DNA from: a bacterium
GTDB taxonomy: Bacteria; Eisenbacteria; RBG-16-71-46; CAIMUX01
Assembly: GCA_030431975.1 (NCBI GenBank)
Contig: JAUIHP010000003.1
Coordinates: 124,001 to 188,000, forward strand
Reading direction: 5' to 3'
Length of the DNA stretch: 64,000 bases
Shown: piece by piece, positions 9,835 through 35,141 of the stretch
Numbering within the stretch: position 1 is the stretch's first letter
How the letters are laid out: every line of letters begins with the position of its first letter
Made by a program: the position numbers and the translations under genes
Notes under the pieces: generated by a model
Database searches by the model: none
The model's input: the letters and a program-made list of their open reading frames with translations, nothing else
What the model was told of the DNA's origin: nothing

Positions 9835-9879
9835 GAAAACCGATCATGAAAACCGGTCATGAAAACCGGTCATGAAAAC
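9828..9879. repeat. 13-bp tandem repeat over the esterase start
   Basis: Four copies of a 13-bp unit (CGATCATGAAAAC or CGGTCATGAAAAC) and a fifth fragment. Read on the minus strand, each unit contains an ATG. The unit is not a multiple of three, so successive copies put ATG in different frames. The first in-frame start of the esterase (9834) is one of them. Confidence 0.9.
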
Positions 9880-9901
9880 CGATTGTGCTTACCGGGCTCG
9901 T

Positions 9902-11341: not shown

Positions 11342-11399
11342 GATCGGTCTCCTTGTTGCGAGCTGTCGCAAGTGGGGCAGTTGAAAGCGGGCCTACTCT

Positions 11400-11478
11400 G
11401 AAGTAGCTAAGTATGCGTTGATTTATTATAAATACAACGAATTTTACGTTAGTCAGTATCAATTTTATTCTTTGTCGT
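11400..11478. promoter_or_regulatory. AT-rich divergent promoter island
   Basis: An 80-bp stretch far richer in A/T than the rest of the window, between divergent glnA and the kinase-STAND gene. On the minus strand it contains TATAAT (plus-strand ATTATA at 11425-11430), a plausible -10 element for glnA. No matching consensus -35 was found at the right spacing. Position and composition argue for a promoter; the exact boxes are uncertain. Confidence 0.45.
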
Positions 11479-11602
11479 AGCCTGCGGGCCCCTATTGCAG
11501 TGCTCGGTCGGTTCGGGGAGGTGGTGGACTCACAAAGCCCCACCCTTGGCCGGGATCCGGTAGACTCAAGTCAATTCACGATTTCCACGGACAAAGGGTG
11601 GT

Positions 11603-17888: not shown

Positions 17889-20800
17889 ATGTCGAATCCA
17901 GGCGGGCTTCCGGCGAGAGCGGGTTTCTTCATCACCGTCGGGGCCGTCCGGGGGAATCCATCGCTGTCCAGGCATGACTTCACTCCTTCCGGTGTGGCCG
18001 CCCTCCGCACTCCGACGCTTCCGTTCTCCGTGCTCGTAACGCCAGGTTCGTTCGGCGCTCCGATTTCGGAAGAGGCGTGGAAGGACCGACGGGCTGAAGA
18101 GCGGGACCTTCTCCTGGAACGACTCCGGGATCCGGTCATCCGGGAGGCCGTCTTCCTGGCCAGTCCGGACTTGGAAGAGCGCATTCCTTCCTGGGAAGAC
18201 GACCCCGAGAGCGAGTCGGGCCGGCGGGTGGAGGTCGCGCTCTACAAGTACGTGACCCGGATGGCGTCCCGCTGTACTCCCTTCGGTCTTTTCGCTGCCA
18301 ATACTGTGGCTCGAGTCGGGCGGACCACACACCTGGCTCTGGCTCCGAGAGCGAGCTGTGTTCGGTCGTCTCGGATCGACATGGAGTTCCTCGATGCGGC
18401 GATCGAGAAGATGGCGGACGACCCGGCGCTCCGGCCCGTTCTCCCGTTTCGAACGAATACCAGTCTCTACCGGTTGGGAGCCACGTTGCGCTATGCAGAG
18501 CCCCGCACGGTTCGCGGCCAGCGTGCCTACTTTCTTGTCGACGTCGAGGCCGATGACGTTCTGTTGAAGATGCTGGCGACGGCCCGGGGCGGAGCTTTGT
18601 TGGAAGACGTTGCCCGGGTGGCGGTCGATGCGGAGGTCTCGCTTGCCGACGCCTATGAGTTTGCCGAGGAGCTCGTGGCCGCTCGTTTACTGGTGCCGCA
18701 CCTCGGTCCGGTCGTGACCGGCGAGGACGCCACGGACTTCATTCTCCACGAACTCCGATCCCGTCCCGCGGCGCGGCCGATCGTCGACACTCTGGGACGG
18801 GTCCGTGACGCCCTGCGCTCGTTGGACAAGGAAGGTCTGGGACATTCGCCGCAGGTCTACCGCGAGCTCATGGATACGGCCAAGGCACTCGGTCCGGTCG
18901 AGCCGGCCCGATTTGTACAGGTCGATCTGATCCGGCCCGGAGACTCCGTGACCGTGGCCAACTCCGTGGTCGACGAGTTGCTGAAGGCCGCGCACGTTCT
19001 TCTGGATTTGTTCTCTTTCGGGCGCCGGGATCCTCTCTCCGACTTTCGAACCCGATTCGAAGAGCGGTATGGCGATGCGATGGTTCCCCTCGTCGAAGCC
19101 TTGGATGAAGAAACGGGAATCGGATACCAAACGGCACAGGGCCCGGCTGCCGATGCCTCTCCGCTGATTGCGGGACTTCCTTTTCCGGATGGGGAGGACG
19201 TGGAGGAGGTCGCCTGGGGCTCGCGAGGACGGTATCTCCTTCGCAAGACGGTCGAGACGTTGACGGAGAATCGCCCGGAGATGGTCCTCGAGCCGGCGGA
19301 GCTCCGTGTCTTCGAAGATCCGGACGTAACGTCGCTGGCGGACGCTATTCACGTTCATGCGTCGTTGTTGGAGCCGGACGGAGAAAACGGCGCCTGGGCT
19401 GTCTTCGATTCTGCGGGGGGGCCTTCGGGGGCCCGCCTTCTCGGCCGATTCAGCCACGCGGATCCGCTTCTTCGAGACGGCGTCGACGAGCATGTTCGTG
19501 ACGAGGAGGCCCTGGCTCCGGACGTCTGTTTCGTCGAACTCGTTCATCTTCCGGAAGGCCGAACCGGAAACATTTTGGCGCGGCCGCTCCTCCGCCGCTA
19601 TGAACTCGAGTATCTCGGAACGTCCGGCGCTCCCCGCGACCAGGTTCTCCACATCGACGACCTTTGGGTGCGTGTGCGTGACGGCGCCGTCGTGCTTTGG
19701 TCCAGGAGTCTGGGCTGCGAAGTTCGTCCAAGGCTGACCAGTGCCCACAACACGCAGTACCGAAGCCTCGGCCTTTATCGTTTCCTAAGCGCACTGCAGG
19801 CACAGGGGCGAGTCGAGGGAGTTTCCTGGAGTTGGGGGCCGCTCGAAAGTCTGCCGAAGTTGCCCCGCGTCCGCTTCGGTCGAGTCATCCTCACGCCGGC
19901 CGTCTGGCGGCTCCGAAAGCAAGAGATCGAGTCACTTCGCGGGAACGGAGGATTCGCAGCGTTCCGAAGGGTGCAGGAGTGGCGAAAGGACCACGAGCTA
20001 CCCAGGTGGATCGGTCTCGTCGACATGGACAATGTGCTGACCTGCGACCTTGATAGTCCGCTCTCCGTGGCTTCGTTCCTGCACGCGCTGCGGGGACAGT
20101 CCGAGGCACAGGTTCGAGAACTCTTTCCCGGAAGCACGACGGCCGTCGTAGAGGGACCGGAGGGAGTCTTCCTGAACGAAGTGGTCGTTCCCGTGGTTCG
20201 TTCCGGCAAGAATGCGGCGAAGCACCAGGCTGCAACGGGGAGCAGTGAGCCCACCGAACGTCGAGCCGTCGCCGACGGCAGGAAACACGGGGCAAAGGCG
20301 GACGACGTGGGTCGTACGGAGGAACTCGGGGGCACCGAAGGCGCGGTGCGTTCACCGGGAGGACTTTCATTCCTACCCGGGTCGGAATGGTTGAGTGCGA
20401 AGATATACAGCGGAGTCTCCACCAGCGACGTGCTGCTCACCGATTGGATCGCTCCGTTGACGTCGCAACTTCTGCAAGCCGGGGCGATCGAGAGTTGGTT
20501 TTTCCTTCGCTACGCCGATCCGGATTGGCACCTGAGAGTGCGTTTCCGAGGGAGCGCAGAACGCCTGCGGATGGAGGCTCTCTCCCGCCTCGAGGCGGCG
20601 ATGCGATCGGGCTTGGAGTTGGGGCTCGTCCATCGTGTCGAGATCGATACCTACCAGCCGGAAACTGCGAGGTACGGAGGAGAGTCCTACATCGTCGCGG
20701 CCGAGGAGATCTTTCACCACGACAGCGAGTTCGTTGCCGGTGTCGTCGCCGGGAATGCAGGTGACGACGGTCTTGACACCCGGTGGCGGGTTGCGGCGGT

Positions 20801-21338
20801 GGCGATGGATCGCCTGCTTCGGGATTTCGGTTACGGCGTGGACGAAAAGCTGCGTCTGACGCAGCAGCTGAGTGACCACTTTGCGCTGGAGTTTCGGGAG
20901 GACTCGGATCTGCGCAAAGCCCTGCGCGATCGCTATCGGCAGGAACGTCGTGCCATCGAGAGTTGGCTGGACGGCGCCTCGAAGTCGTCGGAGGAGTTCG
21001 CGGAGGCGATGGCCGGCGTCGAGGCGCGAAGTGAGTCGATGCGCCCTGCGATCGAACGGTACTTGGCAGGTGAACGGGCGGGTCGACTATCGACTTCGCT
21101 GGACGAAATCGTCGCCAGCTTTCTCCACATGCACGTCAATCGGGTGCTCCGGGGAGCGCAGCGGGCGCAGGAGATGGTGCTCTACCGTTTTCTCGCCAAG
21201 ACGTACGAATCACGCCAAGCCCGGGCGAGGGCGCAGGCCAAGGGTCGGGCACAGGGGCCCGCAAAAGAGGGGCGGGCAAAGAGCGAAGCAACGACGCAAG
21301 CGAAGGGCGGAGTGAAAGCACAGGACTCGAAGTCGTGA
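17889..21338 (+). CDS. lanB: Class I lanthipeptide dehydratase LanB (full length)
   Basis: 1149 residues, the length of single-chain LanB enzymes. These dehydrate Ser/Thr in a precursor using glutamyl-tRNA. The N-terminal glutamylation domain starts near 'FTPSGVAALRTPTLPFSVL' and includes 'YKYVTRMASRCTPFGLFA', the usual LanB hallmark. The elimination domain (SpaB_C type) begins near residue 828, with 'SEWLSAKIYSGVSTSDVLL', 'FFLRYADPDWHLRVRFRG' and 'RVEIDTYQPETARYGG'. A linker around 770-825 and a 35-residue Ala/Lys/Gly-rich tail are low-complexity. Unlike Bacteroidota pinensin-type systems, the two domains are not split. The ATG has no good ribosome site; a downstream GTG near 17994 is an alternative. 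It overlaps the next gene by GTGA and acts with lanC on the lanA precursor. Confidence 0.93.
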   Translation: MSNPGGLPARAGFFITVGAVRGNPSLSRHDFTPSGVAALRTPTLPFSVLVTPGSFGAPISEEAWKDRRAEERDLLLERLRDPVIREAVFLASPDLEERIPSWEDDPESESGRRVEVALYKYVTRMASRCTPFGLFAANTVARVGRTTHLALAPRASCVRSSRIDMEFLDAAIEKMADDPALRPVLPFRTNTSLYRLGATLRYAEPRTVRGQRAYFLVDVEADDVLLKMLATARGGALLEDVARVAVDAEVSLADAYEFAEELVAARLLVPHLGPVVTGEDATDFILHELRSRPAARPIVDTLGRVRDALRSLDKEGLGHSPQVYRELMDTAKALGPVEPARFVQVDLIRPGDSVTVANSVVDELLKAAHVLLDLFSFGRRDPLSDFRTRFEERYGDAMVPLVEALDEETGIGYQTAQGPAADASPLIAGLPFPDGEDVEEVAWGSRGRYLLRKTVETLTENRPEMVLEPAELRVFEDPDVTSLADAIHVHASLLEPDGENGAWAVFDSAGGPSGARLLGRFSHADPLLRDGVDEHVRDEEALAPDVCFVELVHLPEGRTGNILARPLLRRYELEYLGTSGAPRDQVLHIDDLWVRVRDGAVVLWSRSLGCEVRPRLTSAHNTQYRSLGLYRFLSALQAQGRVEGVSWSWGPLESLPKLPRVRFGRVILTPAVWRLRKQEIESLRGNGGFAAFRRVQEWRKDHELPRWIGLVDMDNVLTCDLDSPLSVASFLHALRGQSEAQVRELFPGSTTAVVEGPEGVFLNEVVVPVVRSGKNAAKHQAATGSSEPTERRAVADGRKHGAKADDVGRTEELGGTEGAVRSPGGLSFLPGSEWLSAKIYSGVSTSDVLLTDWIAPLTSQLLQAGAIESWFFLRYADPDWHLRVRFRGSAERLRMEALSRLEAAMRSGLELGLVHRVEIDTYQPETARYGGESYIVAAEEIFHHDSEFVAGVVAGNAGDDGLDTRWRVAAVAMDRLLRDFGYGVDEKLRLTQQLSDHFALEFREDSDLRKALRDRYRQERRAIESWLDGASKSSEEFAEAMAGVEARSESMRPAIERYLAGERAGRLSTSLDEIVASFLHMHVNRVLRGAQRAQEMVLYRFLAKTYESRQARARAQAKGRAQGPAKEGRAKSEATTQAKGGVKAQDSKS

Positions 21339-21886
21339 CGGAAGATCAGCAGAGTCCCCTCTTTCGGGAAGAAGCTCTTCAGCACTACGCCGAGTCTTCG
21401 GTGCGCGGCCGACTCCTTCAGATCTCGCCGAGTTGGAACCGTTGGGTTTTCTGGCTGCTCTTGGCGGCTCTGGTCGGCGGAGTAGTGTTTGTCTTCGTCG
21501 TACAAATCGATCGTTGGGTGTCCGGCCCTGTTGTGGCTCTGACTCGTTCCACCGCTGTCGCCGCGTTTCCGCGATCGCTGGTCCAGGACGCATCGCGTGC
21601 GTCAGGCGTCGTGCCGGGGCAATCCATATGGGTTCAGTTCTCCGGCGGGCAGGATCGGGTTGCATTCGAGATCACGGAGACGGATCCGGCGGGCGCGCTT
21701 CCGCAGGGACTCCTTCAACGCTTGAAGGTGGTGACCGTCGAGGAAGCCCACGCGGCCTTTCTCGTCGTGATGGCAGAGAACCCGTCAATGCATGACTCTT
21801 CCGCGGCGGGCGAAGCTGAAGTCAACGTAGGGCGCCGAAGTCTGTATGAAGCCCTTCGTCCGGGCCGTAGCGAGAATTCGCCGTGA
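21335..21886 (+). CDS. Shortened HlyD-like membrane-fusion protein of the lanthipeptide exporter
   Basis: 183 residues starting with GTG in a GTGA overlap with lanB. The N-terminus 'LFREEALQHYAESSVRGRLLQISPSWN' and one membrane segment (about 37-60) look like the start of HlyD-family adaptors of bacteriocin exporters. The C-terminus 'GEAEVNVGRRSLYEALRPG' looks like the end of the same family. The long coiled-coil and lipoyl region in between is missing; usual HlyD adaptors exceed 380 residues. A short periplasmic beta-barrel-like domain may remain. It probably pairs with the downstream LanT. Whether it can span the periplasm is doubtful; it may be a reduced accessory subunit. Confidence 0.65.
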   Translation: MTEDQQSPLFREEALQHYAESSVRGRLLQISPSWNRWVFWLLLAALVGGVVFVFVVQIDRWVSGPVVALTRSTAVAAFPRSLVQDASRASGVVPGQSIWVQFSGGQDRVAFEITETDPAGALPQGLLQRLKVVTVEEAHAAFLVVMAENPSMHDSSAAGEAEVNVGRRSLYEALRPGRSENSP

Positions 21887-24090
21887 CGAGGCTTCGCGAA
21901 CGACTGCGTTCACTCGGGACTCGTCGCCGGGTACCTCATGTTTCCCAGTTGGAAATCGCCGACTGCGGGCCGGCCTGTTTGACCATGGTCCTGGGCTACT
22001 ACGGTTGCCACGTTCCCCTCGACGAGGTGCGGGATCGGTTCGAAGGAGGGCGGGACGGGGCTTCGGCGTTCGACATTCTCGAAGTGGCCAAGGCTTTCGG
22101 TTTGCAGGGGCGAGCTGTTCGTTTGGAGATGGAGGACTTCGACGCTCTCCCTCCGGGCGCGATTCTCCATTGGAGAATGAGTCACTTCATCGTTCTCGAG
22201 AAGACGCGGAAAGATGGAATCGATGTCGTTGATCCCGACGGGGGATCGCGCTATCACCCGATGCGCGAGGTCGAACGGCATTTCAGCGGCGTGGCCATTC
22301 TTCTGGAACCGTCAGAGTCGTTTCAGACTGCAGACGGACCGAGTTCGCCACTTTGGACCTATGCCAGAAGGTTCTCAGCGCACAGCGGGCACCTTTGGCG
22401 GACGGTCGTCCTTTCGATCCTGCTTCAGTTCCTGGCCATGGCCCTTCCTTTGGTCATGGGAATCGTGGTCGACCGTGTCGTCCCGCGGGCCGACACCTAC
22501 CTGCTCGGCGTTCTCTTCTCCGGCATCGCTATCGTTTCGGTCTACACCTTTTTCACCTCGTTCGTTCGGGCGCACGCATTGTTGGCGCTACGTACGCATC
22601 TCGATCTCGAGATGACGACCGGGTTCCTTCAACATCTTCTGCGCCTGCCCTTCTCGTTCTTCCAGCTTCGCCAAACCGGCGATCTCATGATGCGCCTGAA
22701 CTCGAATACCACGATTCGTGAGTTGTTGACGGCTGGAGTCATGAGCTCCCTCCTGGATGGTGTGCTGGTCGTCGGGTATCTCGCAGTCATTCTGTGGACT
22801 CATTGGGTGCTGGGCCTCGTTGTTGTCGCGCTCGGGGCCCTTCGAGTGGTTGTTTTTCTCGCAACGAAACGACGTTTCCGCATCCTCACCGGTGAGTCGT
22901 TACAGGCTCTGGCCGAGTCCTCCAACTATCAGGTCCAGATGATCGAAGGGATCGAGACTCTGAAAACGGCGGGCGCGGAAAGACGGGCTGAGGAAATCTG
23001 GTCCAACCTTTTTGTCGACGTACTCAATGTTTCCATTCGGCGTGGAAGACTGTCTGCCGTGGTCGAGTCCATTCTTCAGGTGTTGGAGGTGGCATCACCG
23101 CTGATCGTTCTGGCCTATGGTACGACTCTCGTTCTGGACGGCAGCATCTCCCTGGGAACGATGCTCGCCGTGACGACGTTGGCTTCCGGATTCCTACAGC
23201 CCCTCGGGTCGATGGTGTCGACCGCACTGCAACTTCAGCAACTCTGGAGCACCGTGGAGCGTGTCGATGACGTGCTTCGACAGGAGCCGGAGCAGAAGGG
23301 CCCTCATCCTGTTGCGCCAAGGCTGAAAGGCGGAGTGACTCTGCAGGGACTCTCCTTCAGGTACGGCGACCGGTCGCCCTGGGCCGTTGATGGTGTTGAC
23401 CTGCAGATCAGGCCGGGGATGCGGATCGCAATCGTCGGACCGAGTGGTTCGGGAAAGTCGACAGTGGCCCGGCTCATTTCCTCGCTCTACCTACCTGCCC
23501 TCGGACGCGTGCTCTTCGACGGGGAGGACTACACCGACTATGACCGGGCTACGCTTCGGAGGCAGCTCGGGTTCGTGCCTCAGCATCCGTTCCTGTTCGG
23601 GGCAACCATCCGTTCGAATATTGCCATGGCAGAAGTCGAGGCCCCGCTTTCCAAGGTGGAAGGGGCGGCTCGGCTGGCCGACATCTACGACGAGATCGAC
23701 GCGCTGCCGTTACGGTTCGAAACTCCCTTGGCGTCCACGGGGTCGAACCTGTCGGGAGGCCAACGGCAGCGAATCGCCATTGCGCGGGCTCTTCTCACGA
23801 AACCGCCCATCGTCGTTCTCGACGAAGCCACGAGTCATCTCGACACGCGATCCGAGCGGAAAGTCTACGAGAACCTGGCGTCCTTGGATTGCACGCGGAT
23901 CGTCATCGCGCACCGGCTCTCGACCATCGTCGATTCCGATCAGATCGTGGTCATGGATGCGGGGCGAATCGTGGGCGCCGGCCGGCACGAAGAGTTGCTG
24001 GAGACCTGCGACCTCTACGCGGAGCTCACCAATCCTGGTCGAGAAGCAGCGCGCGATCCCAGTTCGGAGTCGTCTCCGCAAGAGCGCTGA
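21883..24090 (+). CDS. lanT: Peptidase-containing ABC exporter (C39 family), LanT
   Basis: 735 residues starting with GTG in a GTGA overlap. The N-terminal C39 peptidase keeps its catalytic residues: Cys in 'EIADCGPACLTMVLGYYG', His in 'MSHFIVLE' and Asp in 'VVDPDGG'. Six transmembrane segments follow (about 170-450), then an ATPase with 'GPSGSGKST' (Walker A), 'LSGGQRQRIAIARALL' (signature) and 'IVVLDEATSHLDT' (Walker B). Such PCAT transporters remove double-glycine-type leaders while exporting the peptide. The lanA leader in this cluster fits that specificity, and no separate protease gene is present. The last 65 bp overlap the convergent lanC. Confidence 0.95.
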   Translation: MTRLRERLRSLGTRRRVPHVSQLEIADCGPACLTMVLGYYGCHVPLDEVRDRFEGGRDGASAFDILEVAKAFGLQGRAVRLEMEDFDALPPGAILHWRMSHFIVLEKTRKDGIDVVDPDGGSRYHPMREVERHFSGVAILLEPSESFQTADGPSSPLWTYARRFSAHSGHLWRTVVLSILLQFLAMALPLVMGIVVDRVVPRADTYLLGVLFSGIAIVSVYTFFTSFVRAHALLALRTHLDLEMTTGFLQHLLRLPFSFFQLRQTGDLMMRLNSNTTIRELLTAGVMSSLLDGVLVVGYLAVILWTHWVLGLVVVALGALRVVVFLATKRRFRILTGESLQALAESSNYQVQMIEGIETLKTAGAERRAEEIWSNLFVDVLNVSIRRGRLSAVVESILQVLEVASPLIVLAYGTTLVLDGSISLGTMLAVTTLASGFLQPLGSMVSTALQLQQLWSTVERVDDVLRQEPEQKGPHPVAPRLKGGVTLQGLSFRYGDRSPWAVDGVDLQIRPGMRIAIVGPSGSGKSTVARLISSLYLPALGRVLFDGEDYTDYDRATLRRQLGFVPQHPFLFGATIRSNIAMAEVEAPLSKVEGAARLADIYDEIDALPLRFETPLASTGSNLSGGQRQRIAIARALLTKPPIVVLDEATSHLDTRSERKVYENLASLDCTRIVIAHRLSTIVDSDQIVVMDAGRIVGAGRHEELLETCDLYAELTNPGREAARDPSSESSPQER

Positions 24091-25324
24091 TCAGGACGAG
24101 GCCGACTCCGGCGGCACCGGTCAGCCAGGCCGGATCCTCGATGAATTCTCCGTCGACCTTACGTTCATAGCAGTAGGTTCTGAAACCGGCGATGTTGGGC
24201 AAATCCACCTCACGCCGGAGAAGCTCACTGAACCAGTAGTCGGCAGCTTCACGTGCGTCGTTGTCGCCCGTGGCGGCGTGAAGTCCGGCGAAGACGTGGG
24301 CCACACCGGCAGTCCCATGGCAAAGTCCGTCGTCAGTGACCGAAGTGTTCTCGCCGCGGCGATGGGATGCAGCGTGAAGGGCTTCGAGAGCGAGGTCTCT
24401 CGATTCGCGGTCCTCGAGTGCGCGTGAGGCTGCGTAAAGAGCGGCCGCTACTCCCGGGTCCCCGTAGCACCAGGCGACTCTTGCAGGATCCGAGTCGTAG
24501 GCGGCAGAGACGAAGTCGGGGAAGAGCCCGGTTTCGGCCGTGCGACGGCTCTCGGGAAGCGTTTGCTCCCGGAACCAGTGGACGCAGGGTTCGAGCAGTG
24601 CCCGAGAGCGGTCCCGCAGCTCGGGAAAACGCATGAATCGCGCCAGCACAGCGATGACTCCGGGAATGCCGTGCGACATCCCCAGGTTGAAGTAGGTTTC
24701 GTCTATCTCGACGTCCTTCCCCTGCGCCGTGCGGGTCATCATTCCGCTGGGCCAGGAGTGTCCCACTTTCTGCTCGACGACGGTGCGTTCGAGCCGATCG
24801 AGGACGGCGGTGGCCAGGGGGAGAGCAAGCGGTCGGCCCCATCGCTCGATGGCGTAGACCCCGTGTCCGGCCAGTCCGTCGATGAGGTCATAGGCAGGAA
24901 CGAAAGTCGGGTCGTGCAGACCTTCCAGAAGCGCGTCGTCGATGTCGGCGCAAAGGTCGTCCTCGGTCTTCTCGTTCACAACCCGGAGCACGTGTTCGAC
25001 AGTCCAGGCCACGCTGGGGAAACCGCAGAGCGCAGACGCATCCATGTTCGACTCGGGCAACAACCCGATCGAGTCTTCGAGCAGAGAAAGGGCCCGGTCA
25101 CGGTCCTCGGGGATTCCAAGCCCGGCGCGATGGAGCCAGGCAAAGAAGACGGCGCTGCCTCCGCGTCCCAATGCGAGAGAAATCGAACGTAGACCCGTGT
25201 CGTCGGGACGTTGGGAGAGGACCCACTCATCGTGAGGTCGACGCAGTGCCTCTGCAATCTCTTGCAGTCGGGTGCCGGCTTCTTCGTGAAGTTCCGGAGG
25301 GAGTCGATAGGATGAGGGCTTCAT
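24026..25324 (-). CDS. lanC: Lanthionine synthetase C-like cyclase LanC
   Basis: 432 residues, the usual LanC length, forming an alpha/alpha-barrel zinc enzyme that adds Cys thiols to dehydrated Ser/Thr. The zinc ligands are visible as Cys in 'AWCYGDPG' and Cys-His in 'GLCHGTAG'. The active-site 'GMSHGIPGV' is also present. It lies just downstream of lanA on the same strand, after a strong hairpin, and converges on lanT with a 65-bp 3' overlap. The ATG at 25324 lacks a clear Shine-Dalgarno site. All key residues are present, so it should be active and make (methyl)lanthionine rings in the LanA core. Confidence 0.95.
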   Translation of the reverse strand: MKPSSYRLPPELHEEAGTRLQEIAEALRRPHDEWVLSQRPDDTGLRSISLALGRGGSAVFFAWLHRAGLGIPEDRDRALSLLEDSIGLLPESNMDASALCGFPSVAWTVEHVLRVVNEKTEDDLCADIDDALLEGLHDPTFVPAYDLIDGLAGHGVYAIERWGRPLALPLATAVLDRLERTVVEQKVGHSWPSGMMTRTAQGKDVEIDETYFNLGMSHGIPGVIAVLARFMRFPELRDRSRALLEPCVHWFREQTLPESRRTAETGLFPDFVSAAYDSDPARVAWCYGDPGVAAALYAASRALEDRESRDLALEALHAASHRRGENTSVTDDGLCHGTAGVAHVFAGLHAATGDNDAREAADYWFSELLRREVDLPNIAGFRTYCYERKVDGEFIEDPAWLTGAAGVGLVLISALAETTPNWDRALLLDQDW

Positions 25325-25345
25325 GGAGTTGTCGAGAAAGAAGAA

Positions 25346-25380
25346 CGGCAGCGCACGGGGTGAACCCGCGCGCGCTGCCG
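25346..25380 (-). terminator. Strong hairpin between lanA and lanC (leaky terminator/attenuator)
   Basis: A 9-bp perfect stem (CGGCAGCGC/GCGCTGCCG) is extended by an inner CGGG/CCCG stem with a short loop. In the transcript direction (minus strand) it is followed by TTCTTCTTTCT. It lies 17 bp after the lanA stop and 22 bp before the lanC start. Partial terminators at this place in lanthipeptide operons keep precursor mRNA in excess over the enzyme; that role is inferred here. Confidence 0.7.
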
Positions 25381-25397
25381 CATTCGAACATTTCGTC

Positions 25398-25544
25398 TTA
25401 GCAGAAAATCGGACAGGAGTTGTTCGGACGGGAGCTCGTGTGCGTGCACGGGCACTTCGTGGTCCGGGCAGCCCCTTCGACCTTCTTCGTCTCCGTCTCG
25501 GTCAGGCAGCGAATCGTCTTGCGATTGAGCGTGAGCTTCTTCAT
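25398..25544 (-). CDS. lanA: Class I lanthipeptide precursor peptide LanA
   Basis: 48 residues from the ATG at 25544, preceded by GGAGGG at good spacing; an upstream in-frame extension to 25598 lacks support. The leader starts MKKLTLNRKTIRCLTE, the K-L-x-L-x-K-x-T-I pattern of Bacteroidota/FCB class I lanthipeptide precursors. It ends ETETKKVEGA, which fits a double-glycine leader (Leu -12, Glu -8, Val -4, Gly -2, Ala -1) for the C39 domain of LanT. The predicted core is 23 residues with Cys at core positions 6, 8, 19 and 23. Thr/Ser at 3, 4, 9, 11, 12, 13 and 18 supply up to seven dehydratable sites. Up to four thioether rings are possible. The leader has a further Cys at residue 13. Ring pattern and activity are unknown. 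Confidence 0.9.
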   Translation of the reverse strand: MKKLTLNRKTIRCLTETETKKVEGAARTTKCPCTHTSSRPNNSCPIFC

Positions 25545-25727
25545 GGCAGTATCCCTCCATGGGACTTGAGTAGACGTTTCCAGTTCTCCGAGCTTCATGC
25601 CCGGAGCGGCCCTCGACAGACTAATTCAGCGTAGGTACGTCTACAACGCAGGCTTGCGGATTTCGATCGTTGAAACAGGTTTCTTCCGGCGGCGGACCGA
25701 ACCGACGGATCAGGTTCGTCCCCCGGA

Positions 25728-25772: not shown

Positions 25773-25841
25773 CCTCGTCGTTCCGCCTCGTCGTTCCGCT
25801 TTGTCGGCCTGCCCAGTCGGCCTGCTCACCGACCTGCCTAG
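25773..25841. repeat. 13-bp tandem repeats at the cytochrome 3' end
   Basis: Two perfect CCTCGTCGTTCCG units are followed by three 13-bp units of a second type (GTCGGCCTGCCCA and variants). The last one reaches over the cytochrome stop codon. The 13-bp period matches that at 9828-9879. Confidence 0.8.
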
Positions 25842-28159
25842 TCGATACGAACAACCTGCTTGACTAGTTGTTGGTCACCGACCTGGATTCGGAACCAGTA
25901 GACGCCGGCTCCGGTCGCTTCTCCGCGCCTGTCGTTTCCGTCCCAGTGGAGTCGGTGCGGTCCTGCGCCCAGCAGTCCGAGGTCCCGGTCCTGGAGTCGG
26001 CGGCCCGTGGCGTCGAAGACGGCCCAGCTCGCGGGTTGCGGTTTCGCCAGGTCGAGGCGGAGGTCGACGGCCCCGCGGAACGGGTTGGTCTCCGGGAAGA
26101 ACGCGAGGACAGCGTCACCGGTCTTGTCTTCGTTGTCCGGAAGGTCGACGGACGTCGGGGCGGTGTGCGCCGTGTCTGCGACCATCGGGAAGGGCGGCGC
26201 CTTTCCGTTGGTGGCCCAGGCGTTCGACAGGAAAGTTCCAGCGCCGTTGGTCACGTTCTCGTTCTGAAGGAAGTCGACGTGCTCTTTGGTCAGAGACTGG
26301 TAGTAGAGCGTGGCCCGGACGACGAAGGTCTCCGGGGGCAGCAGGTACGTCGCGGTGTCCCAGTTCTGCCCATCGGCATAACGCGGCACCGGCGCGTTCG
26401 GGTCCGAGTCGACCGGTTTACCACCAAATGCGTCAAAGGAGGCGTTGGTGAAACCCTGTGGAGGAATCCGGTTCTCTTTGTAGAAGGTGTCATTCAGTGC
26501 GAAGTGAAACGTGGGGCCGGGCTCCCGGTCGAGCTGTGCCGCAAGAGAGTGGGAGATTCCCATCTTGCCCTCGTAGACACGAACATCCTCGTCGAGGGTG
26601 AGGATGGCCGTTCCGAAGTCGTAGGCTCCGGATTCGTAGATCGTGTTTCCGAGATTGTCCTCGGCGACAAGGTGAATCCACATTCGGCGGCCTTCGGGGA
26701 ACCCGGTCGGTAGCTTGTGCCCGGTCCGGTTGGTCACCGTTACCGTGGCCGCCCAGACGGTATCCTGATCGGCGAGTTCGAGGTCGAGGAGCGCGGCCAA
26801 ACGAAGCATTCCCTCCGCCCGGGTGCTTGCGTCGTTCAACGCGTCAACGTCGACGGCAGCCGGGTAGAGAGTTCCCATGGTCTTGCTCAACCAAACGCTG
26901 CCTCCCATCATGTCGTGGAAGGCGAGATCCGACCGTTCTCCGCCGATGATAGCGCCCTTGCCGATGACATCGGCCATGTGACAGTCCTGACAGGTGGAGA
27001 CGAAGCCGTCCGGCTTGTTGCCGGCGAACTCGGGTGAAAAAACGCCGTCGCCGATTGCGAAGTCGCTGGCCTTCCATTCGCTGTAGGTCCGTTCCAACGG
27101 GAGGATGTCTGTCGAGGCCTGGCTGGCTGCCGGTGCGTCCAGGGGGCCGAGCTCATAGTCGGCGCCCGAGACACGGTCGTACATGGGGTTGGAAACGTCG
27201 TGGCAGGTTCCGCAGAAATCCGAAGACATGAAGAAGTCCGACTGCAACCAGTCGTGGGCCGGGTTGCCGTCGTCCCGAGGTCCGCGGCGACGCGGCTCGG
27301 GGTCGATGACCATCTGCCCGTTGGCATAAGTCACCGGAACGGCTTCCAGCGCGTTCAGAATGTCGAGGTCTTCGGCCGGACTTTGACCTTCGACGTAAAC
27401 CGGGTCGACGAGGCCGTGGCAGATCGCGCAGGAAACGCTCTCCTGATCACGATTCGTCAACAGCTCCCCGTCTGTGGGATTGCACCGGCCGGCGAACCAG
27501 GCGCCGGGCGCGTGACAGCGAAGGCAAAAATCCCCGGAGGACGGTGCGTCCTGTTCCGCGATGGCGAGTGAGGCCATGAAGAGCGGGTCGCGAACCGCAT
27601 GTCCCATCATCGTTCCCAGCCAGGCGTGACCCGGCTCCGCGTCGTCGTCGTAGCCTCCGTGGCAAATGCTGCACGCACTGTAGTCGTCGACTTCATCCAG
27701 AACATGGGCGGCGCTTCCCGGCATCTTGAAGTCACGTAGAGTCGAGGCGACCGTTCCGGCCTGCGCAATGATCTCGAAGGCGACGTCGTTGCTGTCGGCT
27801 GCAGAGTTCCCGGCGGCATCGAAGGCGGTGACCCGGACCCACGCCTGCGTCGACGGCGTGTTGTGCGTGTACCAGGAAAAGACCGGAGGATCGTTGCCGA
27901 GATTGCGCGCGATCGGAGTCCAGACGCCGTCTTCGATCGTCTTGTAGTCGATCTGTACGAGATTGACACCGACGTTGTCGGAGGCAGACCAGATGACGCT
28001 GTTGATGATGCCGGCCTGCAGCGAACCGCCGGCAGGAAGCACCAGGTTGACGGTCGGTGGGGTTGTGTCTCCCGCTTCGGCAACGCCGACCAGCAGACCG
28101 CCGACGGCCAGGCAGCCAACGAGGGCGCTGAGAGTGGAGACCGCGCCAAAACGCTTCAA
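25838..28159 (-). CDS. Secreted five-haem c-type cytochrome with C-terminal sorting-type domain
   Basis: 773 residues from a TTG start with GGAGGT at ideal spacing. A signal peptide (about 1-30) is followed by an Ig-like domain ('TPPTVNLVLPAGG', about 32-135). Five CXXCH haem sites follow: CSICH near 163, CLRCH near 211, CAICH near 243, CGTCH near 315 and CQDCH near 390. This resembles cytochrome c554/multihaem family proteins of uncertain reductase or electron-transfer function. The C-terminus has 'NPFRGAVDLRLDL', 'WAVFDATGRRL' and 'GAGVYWFRIQ', a FlgD-like domain used for outer-surface sorting in FCB bacteria. It is probably exported to the periplasm or cell surface. The electron partner cannot be inferred from the neighbours. 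Confidence 0.85.
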   Translation of the reverse strand: MKRFGAVSTLSALVGCLAVGGLLVGVAEAGDTTPPTVNLVLPAGGSLQAGIINSVIWSASDNVGVNLVQIDYKTIEDGVWTPIARNLGNDPPVFSWYTHNTPSTQAWVRVTAFDAAGNSAADSNDVAFEIIAQAGTVASTLRDFKMPGSAAHVLDEVDDYSACSICHGGYDDDAEPGHAWLGTMMGHAVRDPLFMASLAIAEQDAPSSGDFCLRCHAPGAWFAGRCNPTDGELLTNRDQESVSCAICHGLVDPVYVEGQSPAEDLDILNALEAVPVTYANGQMVIDPEPRRRGPRDDGNPAHDWLQSDFFMSSDFCGTCHDVSNPMYDRVSGADYELGPLDAPAASQASTDILPLERTYSEWKASDFAIGDGVFSPEFAGNKPDGFVSTCQDCHMADVIGKGAIIGGERSDLAFHDMMGGSVWLSKTMGTLYPAAVDVDALNDASTRAEGMLRLAALLDLELADQDTVWAATVTVTNRTGHKLPTGFPEGRRMWIHLVAEDNLGNTIYESGAYDFGTAILTLDEDVRVYEGKMGISHSLAAQLDREPGPTFHFALNDTFYKENRIPPQGFTNASFDAFGGKPVDSDPNAPVPRYADGQNWDTATYLLPPETFVVRATLYYQSLTKEHVDFLQNENVTNGAGTFLSNAWATNGKAPPFPMVADTAHTAPTSVDLPDNEDKTGDAVLAFFPETNPFRGAVDLRLDLAKPQPASWAVFDATGRRLQDRDLGLLGAGPHRLHWDGNDRRGEATGAGVYWFRIQVGDQQLVKQVVRID

Positions 28160-28385: not shown

Positions 28386-31300
28386 CTACTGCCCCGACCA
28401 CTTCTCGACCCTTGTCTGGACACCGTTCGAGTAGTGGAACTCCAAACGGCGACCGGCCGTGGAGATCTCCGCCAGACCGTTTCGACCCACTCCGATGAAG
28501 GTGTCGGCCTCCACGTCGCGAACCAGCACGGCGGGGGACACGGTGGCGTCCCAGCGGAGTTCCAGTCCATTCGCGGTGGGAGTCAGCTGAGCCGGTCGCG
28601 GGTTGGTGCGGAAGGCCGCTCCACTCGGTGCTTCGGAAGGCACGTCCCGGCGGACCTGTTCCGTGCCGTTGTGGGTCACGCGAAGCGTACGCGTCTGGTC
28701 GAGGAGTCCCTCGGTCATGGGCAACGAGAAACAGAAGCCTGCGGCGTCGGGGTCCGGCATGTGTGTGATGTTCCACATCCCGAACGGCTCAGACCAGAGG
28801 ACGGCGCCGTTTTCGTCCAGACCTTCGATTGCGTAAGGTCCATCAATCGGTGCGACGGGCCGCGAGTCGATGAGGAACGAAGGCTCGAGTTTGATCTCGC
28901 CGTAGGTCCGAAGGCCCCAGACGAGCAGACACGACTCCTTGGTCGTCATCATCTGTCTACCGATCGGACTCGACTCGCGGAAGTCGAGAACCTTCTTGTA
29001 GACGTAGTCGCTGATCCACTGCGGACCGCAGTAGCTCATGATGTCCTTGTAGGTGTCCTTGTCATACTGCGTACTTGCCCACAGGTCGTAGCCGTAGACA
29101 CCGATGTCTCCGCCGGAATATGGGTAGGCCGGATCCGTACCGGACTCGCCGGAGCATTGCGTGTGCGGCCGGTCGAAGTTGTGTCCGACCTCGTGGGCCA
29201 GGACCCAGCCTCCGCTCGGAAGGTAGTCCCAACCGATCGCCACCGGATAGCCGACCCAACCAAGTCCGGCCACGCCGGAGGAGTAGGTCACATCGACGAC
29301 GCCGTAGTAGTAGCGCGAGCTGGAGTCCGATGTACGCAGCAGCGTCACTTCGTTGAGGACGTCGTTCCATCCCGTTCCGTCGGAAAGCAGCGTCGTGCTG
29401 CTGCTCATGCTGGCTCGCACCGAGACGTCGTAATCGGACATGGGGAAGATGCGCCGTGTCGCGTCCATGAACGTGGCGGCGTTTCCTCCGGTCACGTTTC
29501 CGGTTCCGGACGGTCCGTCGACGGGGACCAGGGTCATATTGAAGACCGCAAGGTCACGCACATCCAGGTCGTGCGGCGTACCGGAAACCGGCCACGTGTT
29601 GTTGCTCTCGTTGCTTTCCGCAACCGAGCCCGAAGGATCGACGTCGACGAGAACGGAGTAGCCGGTCTGAAGCAGACTTCCCGGAATCAGTTGGTTCCAT
29701 GACGACCCGAGCGTGCCCTCGGCCATGGACGTTCGGACCGACGCCTCGGGTGCGGAGATGGTGTAGGTCTGAACGAGATCATCGCTCTCGTCGTAGATGC
29801 GAACGCGTACGTCCGGAGTGGCCGAGTTCGACTCGTTGGCGAGGGCGAAGACTCGAATCAGTCCGTCACGATCCTGGACCAACGGAACGTCGAAGTCCGT
29901 GGTCTGCGAGGCCTGCGTGATGTAGACGGTCGGAATCTCCAGGTCGAGAGACGTTCCGCATGGGTTCGGTGAGCAGTCGGTGCCGGCGCCCTGCCAGGTA
30001 CTGGAACCGGAGCAGGCCGCTTCGGTCGTCACGGTGCAGGAGTTGTTGGTGGCGCAGCAGGCGCCCGTCGGTTGCGGACACGGATTCGGGCTACAGTCGG
30101 TCTCTGCGCCCTCCCAGGAAGACGGCGCGGTGCAGGCCGCTTCGGTCGTCACGGTGCAGGATCCATCGTCTGCGCAACATGCGCCCGTCGGTTGCGGACA
30201 CGGGTTCGGGCTACAGTCGGTTTCTGCGCCTTCCCAGGAAGACGGCGCCGTGCAAGCCGCTTCCGTCGTTACGGTGCAGGAACCGTCGTCCGCGCAACAT
30301 GCACCGGTCGGTTGCGGACACGGGTTCGGGCTGCAGTCGGTTCCGCCGCCTTCCCACGCTCCCGAAGAGGAGGTGCAGGCCGCTTCGGATGTGACGGTGC
30401 AGGATCCGTCGTCGGCGCAACAGGCGCCGGTCGGCTGCGGGCAGGGGTTGGGATCGCAATCCGTACCGGCTCCTTCCCAGGACGAGGGGCCGGAGCAGCT
30501 GACTTCGGCGGTGACCGTGCAGGAACCATCCGTCGCGCAGCATGCCCCGGTCGGCTGATTGCAGGGATTGGGATCGCAGTCCGTGCCTGCGCCTTCCCAG
30601 GTCGAGGGACCGGAGCAGCTTGCTTCCGTCGTCACAGTGCAGGACCCGTCGTCGGCACAGCATGCTCCCGTCGGCTGCGGACACGGGTTCGGATCACAAT
30701 CCGTGTCTGCACCTTCCCAGTTCGACGGACCAGAGCAACTTGCTTCGGTGGTTACCGTGCAGGATCCGTTGGTCGCGCAACACGCGCCCGTCGGTTGCGG
30801 ACACGGGTTGGGATCGCAATCCGTACCGTCGCCTTCCCAGGTGGAGGGACCGGAGCAGTCGGCCTCTTCGGTGACCGCACAGGTTCCATCGGTGTCACAA
30901 CATGCGCCCTCCGGTTGCGGACACGGGTTCGGAGAACAGTCCGTTTCCGCTCCCTGCCAACTCGATGGCGCGTCGCAGTCCGCCTCCGTAGTGACCGTGC
31001 AGGAACCGTCGTCGGCACAGCATGCGCCTTCTGGTTGCGGACAGGGGTTGGGTGAGCAGTCGGTGCCTTCCCCTTCCCAAGCGGACGGAGCGTCGCAGTC
31101 GTCCTCTTCCGTGACGGCGCAGGTTCCGTCGTCGGCGCAGCAGGCGCCTTCCGGTTGCGGACAGGGATTCGGGGAACAGTCCGTTTCAGCGCCCTCCCAG
31201 CTGGAAGGGGCGTCGCAGTCGTCTTCGGTGGTGACGGTGCAGGATCCGTCGTCTGCGCAACACGCGCCCTCAGGTTGCGGGCACGGGTTTGGCGAACAAT

Positions 31301-34300
31301 CCGTCCCTTCGCCCTCCCAACTCGAAGGAGCGCTGCAGTCGTCCTCTTCCGTCACGGTGCAGGTTCCGTCCGTTGCGCAACAGGCGCCTTCCGGCTGCGG
31401 ACACGGGTTCGGATTGCAGTCCGTGGTCGGGCCCTGCCAGACGTTGGACCCGGTGCAGTTCACTTCCAGCTGGACGGAACAGATTCCCTCTGGAGTACAG
31501 CAGGCGCCGGAGGGTTGCGGGCACGGGTTCGGGGAACAATCCGTATCCGCGCCTTCCCAGGACGCCGGCGCGTCACAGTCCGCTTCTTCAGTCACGCTGC
31601 AGGTTCCGTCCGGGTCGCAACAGGCTCCCTCCGGCTGCGGGCACGGATTCGGGTCGCAATCGGTCGCGCCGCCCTGCCAGGCGTGATCACAGTCCGGCTG
31701 GGGTACGACGGTACAGCCTCCGTCCGGATCGCAGCACGCGCCGATGGGGACGCACGGGTTCGGAGAGCAAACGGTGAAGGCGCCCTGCCAGATACTCGGT
31801 TCGGCGCAGTCTGCTTCTTCTTTCACGGTGCAGCCGGCGTCGAGCGCACAACAGGCGCCGTCCGGTTGTGGGCAGGGATTCGGGCTGCAAACCGTTCCCG
31901 CTCCCAGCCAGGTGTCGTCACACGCATCATCGGAAACCAGCGTGCAGCCGCCGTCGTCGGCACAGCAGGCGCCGAAGGGTACGCACACCACTACGTCGCA
32001 TCCGGTGGAGGCCTGCTGCCAAATGCTTCCGCTTGGGCAGTCCGCTGCCGTGGTCACGGTGCATCCGCCGAAGGGATCACAGCACGCGCCGATTGGCTGC
32101 GGACATGGATTCGGTTGGCACTCCGTGGCCGCGCCTTCCCAGGTGCTTCCGACGGCGCAGTCGTCCGCAGTCGTCAGGTTGCAGTCACCGCCGGGTGTGC
32201 AGCAGGCGCCCGTCGGTTCGCACGGAACCGGGGAGCAGTCCGTGTCATCGCCCAGCCAGATGTTCGACCCGGAACAGTCGTCTTCGGTCGTGACCGTGCA
32301 GGAGCCGATCGGTGTACAGCAGGCGCCTTCCGGTTGAGGACACGGATTCGGGGAACAGTCGGTCGAGGCTCCCATCCACTCCGCCGATCCATCGCAACCG
32401 GCCTCCGTCGTGAGGGCGCACGTTCCGTCCTCTTCACAACACGCGCCTTCCGGTTGCGGACAGGGGTTGGGGAGGCAGACCGATTCTGCACCCTGCCAAG
32501 AACCGCTCGTGCACTCCGCCGCCACGATCAACGTACAACTGCCGTCGTCCATGCAGCACGCGCCCTGCGGTTGCGGACACGGATTCGGCTGGCAGATCGT
32601 CTCGCTGCCGAGCCAGTCGGACGGGAAGTCGCAGTCGTTTTCTGTGGTCAGGGAACAGAGTCCGTCCTGGGCGCAGCACGCTCCTGTCGGTTGCGGACAG
32701 GGATTGGGCAGGCAGTCGGTGAGAGCGCCCTGCCAGGATGCGGGAGACTGGCAGTCGGCTTCCAGCTTCAGGCTGCAGACTCCGTCGTCATTGCAGCAGG
32801 CGCCCGTCGGTTGCGAGCACGGATTGGGATCGCACGTCGTTCCCGCTCCCTGCCAGACATGGGGAAGGCAGGCCTGTGCGGAAGTTACGGTGCAGCTTCC
32901 GTCCGGTGTGCAGCACGCACCTTGGGGCTGGGGACAAGGATTCGGGGAACAGTTCTCGCCGGCTTCCCAAACGGAAGGGGCCGGACACGAGTCCGCGATC
33001 GTCACGCTGCAGGAACCGTTCTCAGCACAGCAGGCGCCGGTTTCGACTCCGCAGGGGTTGGGAGTACAGGTGCCGAAAAGAGTCCATTCGTCGTCGCACT
33101 CGGCCTCCGTCGTCAGCGTGCATTCGCCGCCGGTGTCGCAACAGGAGCCGCTCGGTTGCAGGCATGGATTCGGATCGCAGGACTGTCCGATCGTCCAGGT
33201 GCTCAGGCACTCCGATTCCGTGGTCACGACGCACGAACCTTCCGAGGCGCAGCACGATCCGGTAGGTTGCGGACACGGGTTCGGGGTGCAGTCTCCCTGG
33301 ACGGTCCAAACTCCGGAACACTCGGCTTCGAGTTCGATTTCGCACGAGCCGTCGGCGAGACAACACGCTCCGGTCGGCTGCGGGCACGGATTCGGTTGGC
33401 ACACGGCGAAGACGGTCCAGGTGTCCGGGCACTCGGCGGCGAGGGTGACGGTGCAGCTTCCGTCCGGGGCACAACAGGAACCGGTCGGTTGCGGACACGG
33501 GTTGGGCGTACAGGACTCACCCAGGGACCAACTGTCGTCGCAGTCGTCTTCGAAGGTGACGAGGCAGGAACCGCTCTCGTCACAGCAGGCGCCCGTGGGA
33601 CGGTCGCACGGATTCGGATCGCAGACACCGAAGGCGGTCCAGTCGAAGTTGCAGTTCGCCGCCAAGGTGACCGAGCAGGATCCGTCCTCCGCACAACACG
33701 CGCCGGTCGGTTGCGGACATGGATTGGGGGAACAGTCTGCGTTCTTCGTCCACTGGCCGGAGCAACTCGACTCGGTGGTCAAGGTGCAGGCGCCGTCTTC
33801 TGCACAACAGCTCCCGGTGGGTTGAGCGCATGGATTCGGGTCGCAGAACTCAGACTCTTCCCACGCGGAGTCGCAGTTCTGTTCGGTGGTCATGGAGCAG
33901 GACCCATCCTCGTTGCAGCAGGCTCCGCTGGGTGGTGGTGGGCCGTCGGAGCAGGGGTTCGGCATGCACGAACCGGTGGCGGTCCATCCCCCGCTACAGT
34001 CGTCCTCGGTGGTCAGGCTGCATTCCCCTCCCTCGGTGCAGCAAGGGCCCGTCGGAGCCGCACATGGGTTTGGAGAGCAGACGCCAGCTTCAATCCAGAT
34101 ACCAGCACAGTCGGCTGCGTTTGTAGTCGTGCAGTCATCAGAAACGCAGCATGCACCCGTCGGGGCACTGCAAGGGTCGGGAGTGCACTCTGTGTCGGCG
34201 CCTTGCCAACTTGACGGGTCGGAACACTCCGCTTCCGTGGTGATCGCGCATGCGCCGCCCGGTGAACAGCAGGCTCCGGACGAGGCCACGCTTACGCCGA

Positions 34301-34697
34301 TACCGTCGCAACTCACCGTGCCCAGTTCCTCGTTCCCCGTCGAGATGAGGCAGGACTTCGCGCCTTCCGAGCTGGGCTGAAAGCGAACCCTGACGACCCG
34401 CTCCTCGTCCTTTTCCAGTGAGTAGGACCCGCCGCCGGAGATGAGTGTGAACTCCCGGCACGACGATCCGACGGAGCCGTTCAATCGACCCGATCCGACA
34501 TTGGTGATCACGAATGTGAGGTCGGCCCACTCGCCGATCAGGACCTCTCCGAACTCCAGCCCGGTCTTGTCGATCTGCGGGATCGAAGGTTCGGTCGGAT
34601 CCTCGACCGTGCATCCGACCATCGGTCGCGTCGCCAGTACGAGGACGATGACCCAAAAGAAATGTCGAAGGGAGGAGAGGGTCGGGCGCGTGGTCAT
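28386..34697 (-). CDS. Giant cysteine-rich repeat lipoprotein with metzincin protease domain
   Basis: 2103 residues from the ATG at 34697 (GGAG five bases upstream). A signal ending in lipobox 'PMVGC' predicts a lipoprotein. An ASH/choice-of-anchor-like beta domain ('LEFGEVLIGEWADLTFVITN') follows. Then come 37 repeats of about 39 residues, each P-x-G-A-C-C-x4-5-C...C...W...C-x-P-N-P-C with six Cys. After the repeats are a CARDB-like domain ('VRIYDESDDLVQTY', 'NESNNTWPVSG') and a metalloprotease domain. The protease has zinc motif 'HEVGHNFDRPH' and Met-turn 'DIMSYCGPQ', as in reprolysin-like M12 enzymes. The repeats, with about 220 Cys, probably form a disulfide-locked stalk that presents the protease outside the cell. 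Substrate is unknown. PTGACC repeats are known from several environmental phyla; coupling to a metzincin is notable. Confidence 0.85.
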   Translation of the reverse strand: MTTRPTLSSLRHFFWVIVLVLATRPMVGCTVEDPTEPSIPQIDKTGLEFGEVLIGEWADLTFVITNVGSGRLNGSVGSSCREFTLISGGGSYSLEKDEERVVRVRFQPSSEGAKSCLISTGNEELGTVSCDGIGVSVASSGACCSPGGACAITTEAECSDPSSWQGADTECTPDPCSAPTGACCVSDDCTTTNAADCAGIWIEAGVCSPNPCAAPTGPCCTEGGECSLTTEDDCSGGWTATGSCMPNPCSDGPPPPSGACCNEDGSCSMTTEQNCDSAWEESEFCDPNPCAQPTGSCCAEDGACTLTTESSCSGQWTKNADCSPNPCPQPTGACCAEDGSCSVTLAANCNFDWTAFGVCDPNPCDRPTGACCDESGSCLVTFEDDCDDSWSLGESCTPNPCPQPTGSCCAPDGSCTVTLAAECPDTWTVFAVCQPNPCPQPTGACCLADGSCEIELEAECSGVWTVQGDCTPNPCPQPTGSCCASEGSCVVTTESECLSTWTIGQSCDPNPCLQPSGSCCDTGGECTLTTEAECDDEWTLFGTCTPNPCGVETGACCAENGSCSVTIADSCPAPSVWEAGENCSPNPCPQPQGACCTPDGSCTVTSAQACLPHVWQGAGTTCDPNPCSQPTGACCNDDGVCSLKLEADCQSPASWQGALTDCLPNPCPQPTGACCAQDGLCSLTTENDCDFPSDWLGSETICQPNPCPQPQGACCMDDGSCTLIVAAECTSGSWQGAESVCLPNPCPQPEGACCEEDGTCALTTEAGCDGSAEWMGASTDCSPNPCPQPEGACCTPIGSCTVTTEDDCSGSNIWLGDDTDCSPVPCEPTGACCTPGGDCNLTTADDCAVGSTWEGAATECQPNPCPQPIGACCDPFGGCTVTTAADCPSGSIWQQASTGCDVVVCVPFGACCADDGGCTLVSDDACDDTWLGAGTVCSPNPCPQPDGACCALDAGCTVKEEADCAEPSIWQGAFTVCSPNPCVPIGACCDPDGGCTVVPQPDCDHAWQGGATDCDPNPCPQPEGACCDPDGTCSVTEEADCDAPASWEGADTDCSPNPCPQPSGACCTPEGICSVQLEVNCTGSNVWQGPTTDCNPNPCPQPEGACCATDGTCTVTEEDDCSAPSSWEGEGTDCSPNPCPQPEGACCADDGSCTVTTEDDCDAPSSWEGAETDCSPNPCPQPEGACCADDGTCAVTEEDDCDAPSAWEGEGTDCSPNPCPQPEGACCADDGSCTVTTEADCDAPSSWQGAETDCSPNPCPQPEGACCDTDGTCAVTEEADCSGPSTWEGDGTDCDPNPCPQPTGACCATNGSCTVTTEASCSGPSNWEGADTDCDPNPCPQPTGACCADDGSCTVTTEASCSGPSTWEGAGTDCDPNPCNQPTGACCATDGSCTVTAEVSCSGPSSWEGAGTDCDPNPCPQPTGACCADDGSCTVTSEAACTSSSGAWEGGGTDCSPNPCPQPTGACCADDGSCTVTTEAACTAPSSWEGAETDCSPNPCPQPTGACCADDGSCTVTTEAACTAPSSWEGAETDCSPNPCPQPTGACCATNNSCTVTTEAACSGSSTWQGAGTDCSPNPCGTSLDLEIPTVYITQASQTTDFDVPLVQDRDGLIRVFALANESNSATPDVRVRIYDESDDLVQTYTISAPEASVRTSMAEGTLGSSWNQLIPGSLLQTGYSVLVDVDPSGSVAESNESNNTWPVSGTPHDLDVRDLAVFNMTLVPVDGPSGTGNVTGGNAATFMDATRRIFPMSDYDVSVRASMSSSTTLLSDGTGWNDVLNEVTLLRTSDSSSRYYYGVVDVTYSSGVAGLGWVGYPVAIGWDYLPSGGWVLAHEVGHNFDRPHTQCSGESGTDPAYPYSGGDIGVYGYDLWASTQYDKDTYKDIMSYCGPQWISDYVYKKVLDFRESSPIGRQMMTTKESCLLVWGLRTYGEIKLEPSFLIDSRPVAPIDGPYAIEGLDENGAVLWSEPFGMWNITHMPDPDAAGFCFSLPMTEGLLDQTRTLRVTHNGTEQVRRDVPSEAPSGAAFRTNPRPAQLTPTANGLELRWDATVSPAVLVRDVEADTFIGVGRNGLAEISTAGRRLEFHYSNGVQTRVEKWSGQ
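29958..34283 (-). repeat. 37 tandem coding repeats of about 117 bp (PTGACC type)
   Basis: A 4.3-kb array inside the giant lipoprotein gene. The unit is 34-41 codons with six cysteines. Units near the protein's N-terminus are diverse and lack a spacer ('W-x-x-x-G-x-C'). Units toward the C-terminal end are 40 codons, near-uniform and carry 'SSWEGA.TDC'. This suggests the array grew at the 3' end. Units 35 and 36 are identical in protein but differ at 10 of 120 bases. Confidence 0.95.
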
Positions 34698-35141
34698 GGT
34701 GACTCCGGTGTGGACCGTTCCCCTTTGGGGACGCTGTCGACGGGGTGAGTGGGCGTTGGCACTTTGTTCATGTAGATCGGGAGGAAAACCCGCCAACTTC
34801 AGCCGGAGCTGCGGTCGCCGAAGCGGGCCCTGCGGGTGCCGAGGACCACGTGTCCCAAGGGTGGGCCTGGCGCCCGGGTGTGCCCCCGAGCTTCAGGCAT
34901 AGTTGTGCGGATTCGGTAGAGAGGAGGGGTGAATAGGGGTGTCCGGCGGGGACTCCGGGGGGCGGTCTGGGGCAGAAGCCCCAAAGGCAGGCCCGGATCA
35001 CGGAGCAAATTCGGCGAACGAGTGTACAGGGAAAGGGAGGCTCCGCCGCTCGCCTCGAATGACCCGAAACGCTACAATCCGTGATCGTGCCGGGGCCGAC
35101 GGACCGGCGAAACCTACTGACAAACGAAGGAGCCCGAACGA
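34698..35141. other. 444-bp intergenic region with hairpins, no gene
   Basis: No supported coding frame. It contains the 5' leader of the giant lipoprotein gene (minus strand), with a CCCC-TTT-GGGG hairpin at 34717-34732. It also contains two larger possible stem structures (34755-34797 and 34802-34898) and the promoter region of the cyclophilin gene. No known riboswitch consensus was recognised. Confidence 0.5.

Follow-up and report, generated by a model that had tools for sequence, protein, structure and literature searches.

The window, by which we mean the whole 64,000-nucleotide stretch of DNA analysed, carries a short gene, lanA, of 48 codons on its minus strand (25398-25544). Its product is the precursor peptide MKKLTLNRKTIRCLTETETKKVEGAARTTKCPCTHTSSRPNNSCPIFC, which can be written MKKLTLNRKTIRCLTETETKKVEGA|ARTTKCPCTHTSSRPNNSCPIFC, where the bar marks the predicted cut. 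The initial annotation had placed this open reading frame at exactly these coordinates and left the strand unstated; the plus strand over the same interval reads as an unrelated frame. The strong GGAGGG Shine-Dalgarno site that it described is found on the minus strand (25553-25558), 8 nt before the lanA ATG. A longer frame of 66 codons from an upstream ATG is also present, but the shorter start is favoured because of the placement of the Shine-Dalgarno site and because similarity between homologues is lost upstream of the KKL motif. A scan for sigma-70 promoters around lanA found nothing, and no Rfam families were found in the window.

On the same strand, 73 nt downstream of lanA, lies a gene for a stand-alone cyclase of 432 amino acids, lanC (24026-25324), with a LANC_like match far over the Pfam cut-off (PF05147, E 3.4e-38). 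Its zinc-ligand motifs SHG, CYG and CHG are in register with those of NisC, and it was also aligned to 8byk. Facing lanC is a plus-strand operon of lanB, a small gene and lanT, in which each gene shares 4 nt with the next; the 3' ends of lanT and lanC also overlap. LanB (17889-21338; 1149 amino acids) is a full-length dehydratase with both glutamylation and elimination domains (PF04738, E 4.6e-143; PF14028, E 8.5e-68; Lant_dehydr_N and Lant_dehydr_C far over cut-off). It was aligned to NisB, MibB and 9g04; in the elimination domain, the alignment with NisB and MibB runs through the stretches FFLRY..HLRVRF, E..RYGG and HMH.NR. It is encoded by the one LanB gene of the source genome. LanT (21883-24090; 735 amino acids) joins a C39 peptidase to an ABC exporter (Peptidase_C39, PF03412; ABC_membrane, PF00664; ABC_tran, PF00005) and shows full-length similarity to ComA and to 4ry2-type bacteriocin transporters. 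Near its N-terminus are the stretches QLEIADCGPAC and SHFIVLE...VVDPDGG, which we take to be the usual C39 catalytic motifs. The protein encoded between lanB and lanT (21335-21886; 183 amino acids) has one membrane segment by inspection and matches no Pfam or NCBIfam family. Although apparently too short for a full HlyD-type adaptor, it has an N-terminus similar to the beginning of such proteins, and it probably serves the exporter as a short HlyD-like adaptor. The cluster holds the genes expected of a class I lanthipeptide system, namely a LanB with both domains, a stand-alone LanC with zinc-ligand motifs and an adjacent LanA with a Ser/Thr/Cys-containing core; it also has the C39-ABC exporter expected for a class I LanA with a double-glycine leader.

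Further features of the window lie outside the cluster. Upstream of it, at 11603-15094 on the plus strand, a protein kinase is fused to an NB-ARC-like ATPase and TPR repeats; this protein is a possible regulator. On the minus strand, 25838-28159 encodes a putative secreted, multihaem cytochrome-like protein with a C-terminal FlgD-type Ig domain, the cytochrome matches being weak. Also on the minus strand, 28386-34796 encodes a protein of 2136 residues in which dozens of Cys-rich repeats (GACC..DGSCTVTTEADC...PNPCPQPT) precede a metalloprotease-like HEVGHNFDRPH stretch.

Between lanA and lanC, the minus strand can form a strong stem-loop (25345-25381; MFE -35.1 kcal/mol). A strong hairpin is found at the same place in all four loci of this type (z -4.7 in the window and -3.1, -3.8 and -6.0 in the other three, against shuffles), with sequences that are unrelated. 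Attenuating stem-loops commonly follow lanA in lanthipeptide operons. The structure is probably an attenuator or a partial terminator, a role with which these data are consistent without proving it.

The three lanA homologues are found in uncultured Eisenbacteria/Krumholzibacteriota metagenome-assembled genomes, in each case just before lanC. A precursor in G002 matches at 88%, and searching a named collection gave matches in Candidatus Krumholzibacteriota OFTM315 (L017) and Candidatus Eisenbacteria HKST-UBA01 (L018); the latter and G002 are evidently the same record and were counted once. A fourth precursor, in a member of another family of the same class (G021), was recovered using a profile of the first members. 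Beyond the KKL motif, the alignment of the four peptides is free of gaps apart from two residues missing in G021, whose core is shorter by that amount. In OFTM315 the full gene order is as in the window, with lanA-lanC facing lanT-adaptor-lanB, and the partner of the 183-residue protein occupies the same place at 35% identity. In G002 and G021 the start of lanC follows lanA. The lanB gene of G002 is on a separate contig (C517), and contig C231 of G021 carries the end of lanB, the adaptor gene, lanT and the remainder of lanC. Across the phylum, LanB is present in 6 of 47 genomes, three of which carry this type of precursor; it was not found by pattern or profile in the others (G037, G038 and G046). 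A weak match in G022 (E 0.024) was rejected as due to chance, as it overlaps an unrelated coding sequence in a genome without LanB.

The leader of LanA is 25 residues long (25470-25544, minus strand) and ends in V-E-G-A. All four aligned leaders have the pattern L-x-L-x-R-x5-L, with Arg where the LxLxKx5L motif has Lys. Against the NF038153 model (lant_leader_L1a) the window leader scores 20 bits and the three homologous leaders 16.9, 15.3 and 15.3 bits; all are below the curated cut-off of 22, so they are not assigned to the model. Bacteroidetes have class I LanAs with LxLxKx5L leaders, many of which end in Gly-Gly, together with C39 proteases (Walker et al., 2020; PMC7268733). LanA shares with these the leader architecture, a double-glycine-type site, a C39 exporter and LanB plus LanC, but differs in the Arg of the motif, in a site that is Gly-Ala rather than Gly-Gly, in the sub-threshold scores (15-20 bits) and in coming from another phylum; its core is unrelated to any other that was found. 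It fits the class I, double-glycine/C39 kind already published for Bacteroidetes, with a divergent leader. The suggestion of a Bacteroidota/FCB-type class I leader is supported in this divergent form, and the cleavage pattern proposed with it (Leu-12, Glu-8, Val-4, Gly-2, Ala-1) is as described, Gly-Ala being suited to the neighbouring C39 exporter. The Cys at position 13 of the window precursor (R-C-L-T) is kept in every one of the four leaders.

Given a site of the double-glycine type and a C39 exporter nearby, cleavage is predicted after Gly-Ala and would release a core of 23 residues (ARTTKCPCTHTSSRPNNSCPIFC; 25401-25469, minus strand). As the initial annotation had it, this core has four Cys, at positions 6, 8, 19 and 23, together with seven Ser/Thr (T3, T4, T9, T11, S12, S13 and S18). 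All four cores keep the four Cys, T3, T9, T11, S12 and S13, as well as a Ser immediately preceding the third Cys (S18 in the window), and each also contains the C-terminal pattern S-C-[PL]-I-F-C. In G021, the most divergent of the homologues, T4 is replaced by Lys and there is an extra donor at S5, giving the block T3-K4-S5-C6-P7-C8; the details of the rings are therefore not fixed by conservation alone.

Rings D and E of nisin are intertwined and are formed from T-A-T-C-H-C (T23-C26 and T25-C28). The TKSCPC of G021 has the same spacing of donors and acceptors (T3-C6 and S5-C8), and the TTKCPC of the window is close to it, with T3-C6 and T4-C8 as the equivalent pairs. The CxC pair is thus a known arrangement. 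The block lies near the C-terminus of nisin, whereas here it is N-terminal in the core, and the leader, protease and remaining core also differ. By analogy, T3-C6 and T4-C8 likely form an intertwined pair like nisin rings D and E. S18-C23 is the likely C-terminal ring, which the S-C-[PL]-I-F-C pattern would suit, and the likely partner of C19 is S12, S13 or T11, the choice between them being uncertain. The earlier description of the ring topology as unrecognised was overstated, given this CxC spacing and the fact that a ring closed by a C-terminal Cys is ordinary in lanthipeptides. Formation of AviCys at the C-terminal Cys by a LanD was considered and rejected, since the flavoprotein-family genes of the genome are all on other contigs and the cluster has no LanD. 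The lipid II motif of nisin-type binders, SxxxCTP(G/S)C (PMC7268733), is absent from the core by inspection.

No match to the precursor was found among plasmids or solved structures, nor to its G021 homologue among phage records; a LanB query of the genome collection found no relatives, and the core string CPCTHTSS was not found in the one literature collection searched. The core has no match within the genomes, plasmids, solved structures and literature covered. The same literature collection yielded no paper on lanthipeptides with Eisenbacteria or Krumholzibacteriota. Gram-negative class I lanthipeptides made by LanB and LanC are known from Bacteroidota, namely ChmA of Chryseobacterium and RuiA of Runella, which have been produced in E. 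coli (PMC9993889). These come from another phylum and are set apart by their published description, with three rings compared with up to four possible for LanA. Within the phylum, G037 (L012) has two lanthipeptide-like precursors on the minus strand, at 9588-9836 and at the end of the frame 9791-11962, with tails ATCVTCYATCTC and CTATCYTCYGTCTC. They share with lanA a similar K-L-x-L-N/H leader, which in one of them matches the leader model weakly, and adjacent lanC and lanB. They differ in having no Gly-Gly or Gly-Ala site, an unrelated core and no leader Cys, and the ABC genes nearby have no C39 match, unlike the lanA cluster.

Taken together, we consider with high confidence that lanA is the structural gene of a class I lanthipeptide that would be modified by LanB and LanC and cut by the C39 domain on export. 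LanB would bind the leader and dehydrate Ser and Thr of the core using glutamyl-tRNA, after which as many as four thioether rings would be closed by LanC through addition of the four core Cys to dehydrated residues. During export, LanT would use its C39 domain to cut after Gly-Ala, releasing the 23-residue peptide. For this peptide without modification the computed [M+H]+ is 2524.13, which would fall to 2452.09, 2434.08, 2416.07 or 2398.06 on 4, 5, 6 or 7 dehydrations. The likely effect of the stem-loop after lanA is that substrate is made in greater amounts than LanC.

Least expected in this system is the conservation of the core, which exceeds that of its own enzymes. Between the window and OFTM315, LanB is 50%, LanC 56% and LanT 73% identical, whereas only positions 2 and 20 of the 23 differ between the two cores. 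At the codon level, lanA of the window and of G002 differ by about 19 synonymous and 7 non-synonymous changes (dS ~1.0, dN ~0.07), and the cores of G002 and OFTM315 by 11 synonymous and no non-synonymous changes. Pairwise Nei-Gojobori estimates over the whole peptide give dS of ~0.7-1.7 and dN of ~0.02-0.12, with dN/dS of ~0.02-0.13, ratios that are rough as there are few sites. The pattern indicates that lanA is translated and its core is under constraint, the direction being clear even though the ratios are rough. Conservation of the core beyond that of its enzymes suggests a fixed target or receptor; the most likely role for the product is that of an antibacterial or signalling peptide whose target is conserved.

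That the same lanthipeptide is a conserved signalling or developmental peptide, and not a bacteriocin, is a minority view to which we give some weight. It would explain near-identical cores alongside LanBs of about 50% identity, and no gene for immunity was recognised beside the cluster. The same conservation would, however, be expected of an antibiotic that acts on an invariant target. Slightly more tentative is the wider proposal that a near-constant core, served by enzymes at about 50% identity, forms a four-ring scaffold of two intertwined pairs that may act as a housekeeping signal or an invariant-target antibiotic, not as a fast-diversifying bacteriocin.

Of the readings that depart from a fully cyclised lanthipeptide, partial processing, in which some Cys stay free or form disulfides and the product is dehydrated or of mixed crosslinks instead of four-ringed, appears improbable. 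S18 stands directly before C19, for which no one partner is obvious, but a LanC with all its zinc-ligand motifs is encoded 73 nt downstream and every core Cys is kept in all four genomes. Strongly disfavoured is the idea that lanA is an untranslated or chance frame, with the true LanB/LanC substrate elsewhere in the genome: the frame is short and its leader scores below the curated cut-off, but it has a good Shine-Dalgarno site, is conserved in four genomes with codon-level purifying selection, and sits in a genome with a single LanB gene and a single leader-model hit. That hit, the only one at E<=0.01 in the whole 6.2-Mb genome, is at the lanA locus beside lanC. This unique match, the homologues before lanC in three further genomes and the overwhelmingly synonymous changes place lanA beyond chance, and it is very probably a real gene encoding a class I lanthipeptide precursor.

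LanA of the window is a short, fully specified target for heterologous production, and the four homologues, which differ at a few informative positions, constrain its likely ring pattern. The gene widens the range of class I lanthipeptides with leaders of the double-glycine type to include a candidate phylum on which the literature collection searched gave no lanthipeptide paper, and the unusual conservation of its core makes the biological role of the peptide in these little-studied, uncultured bacteria a testable question.
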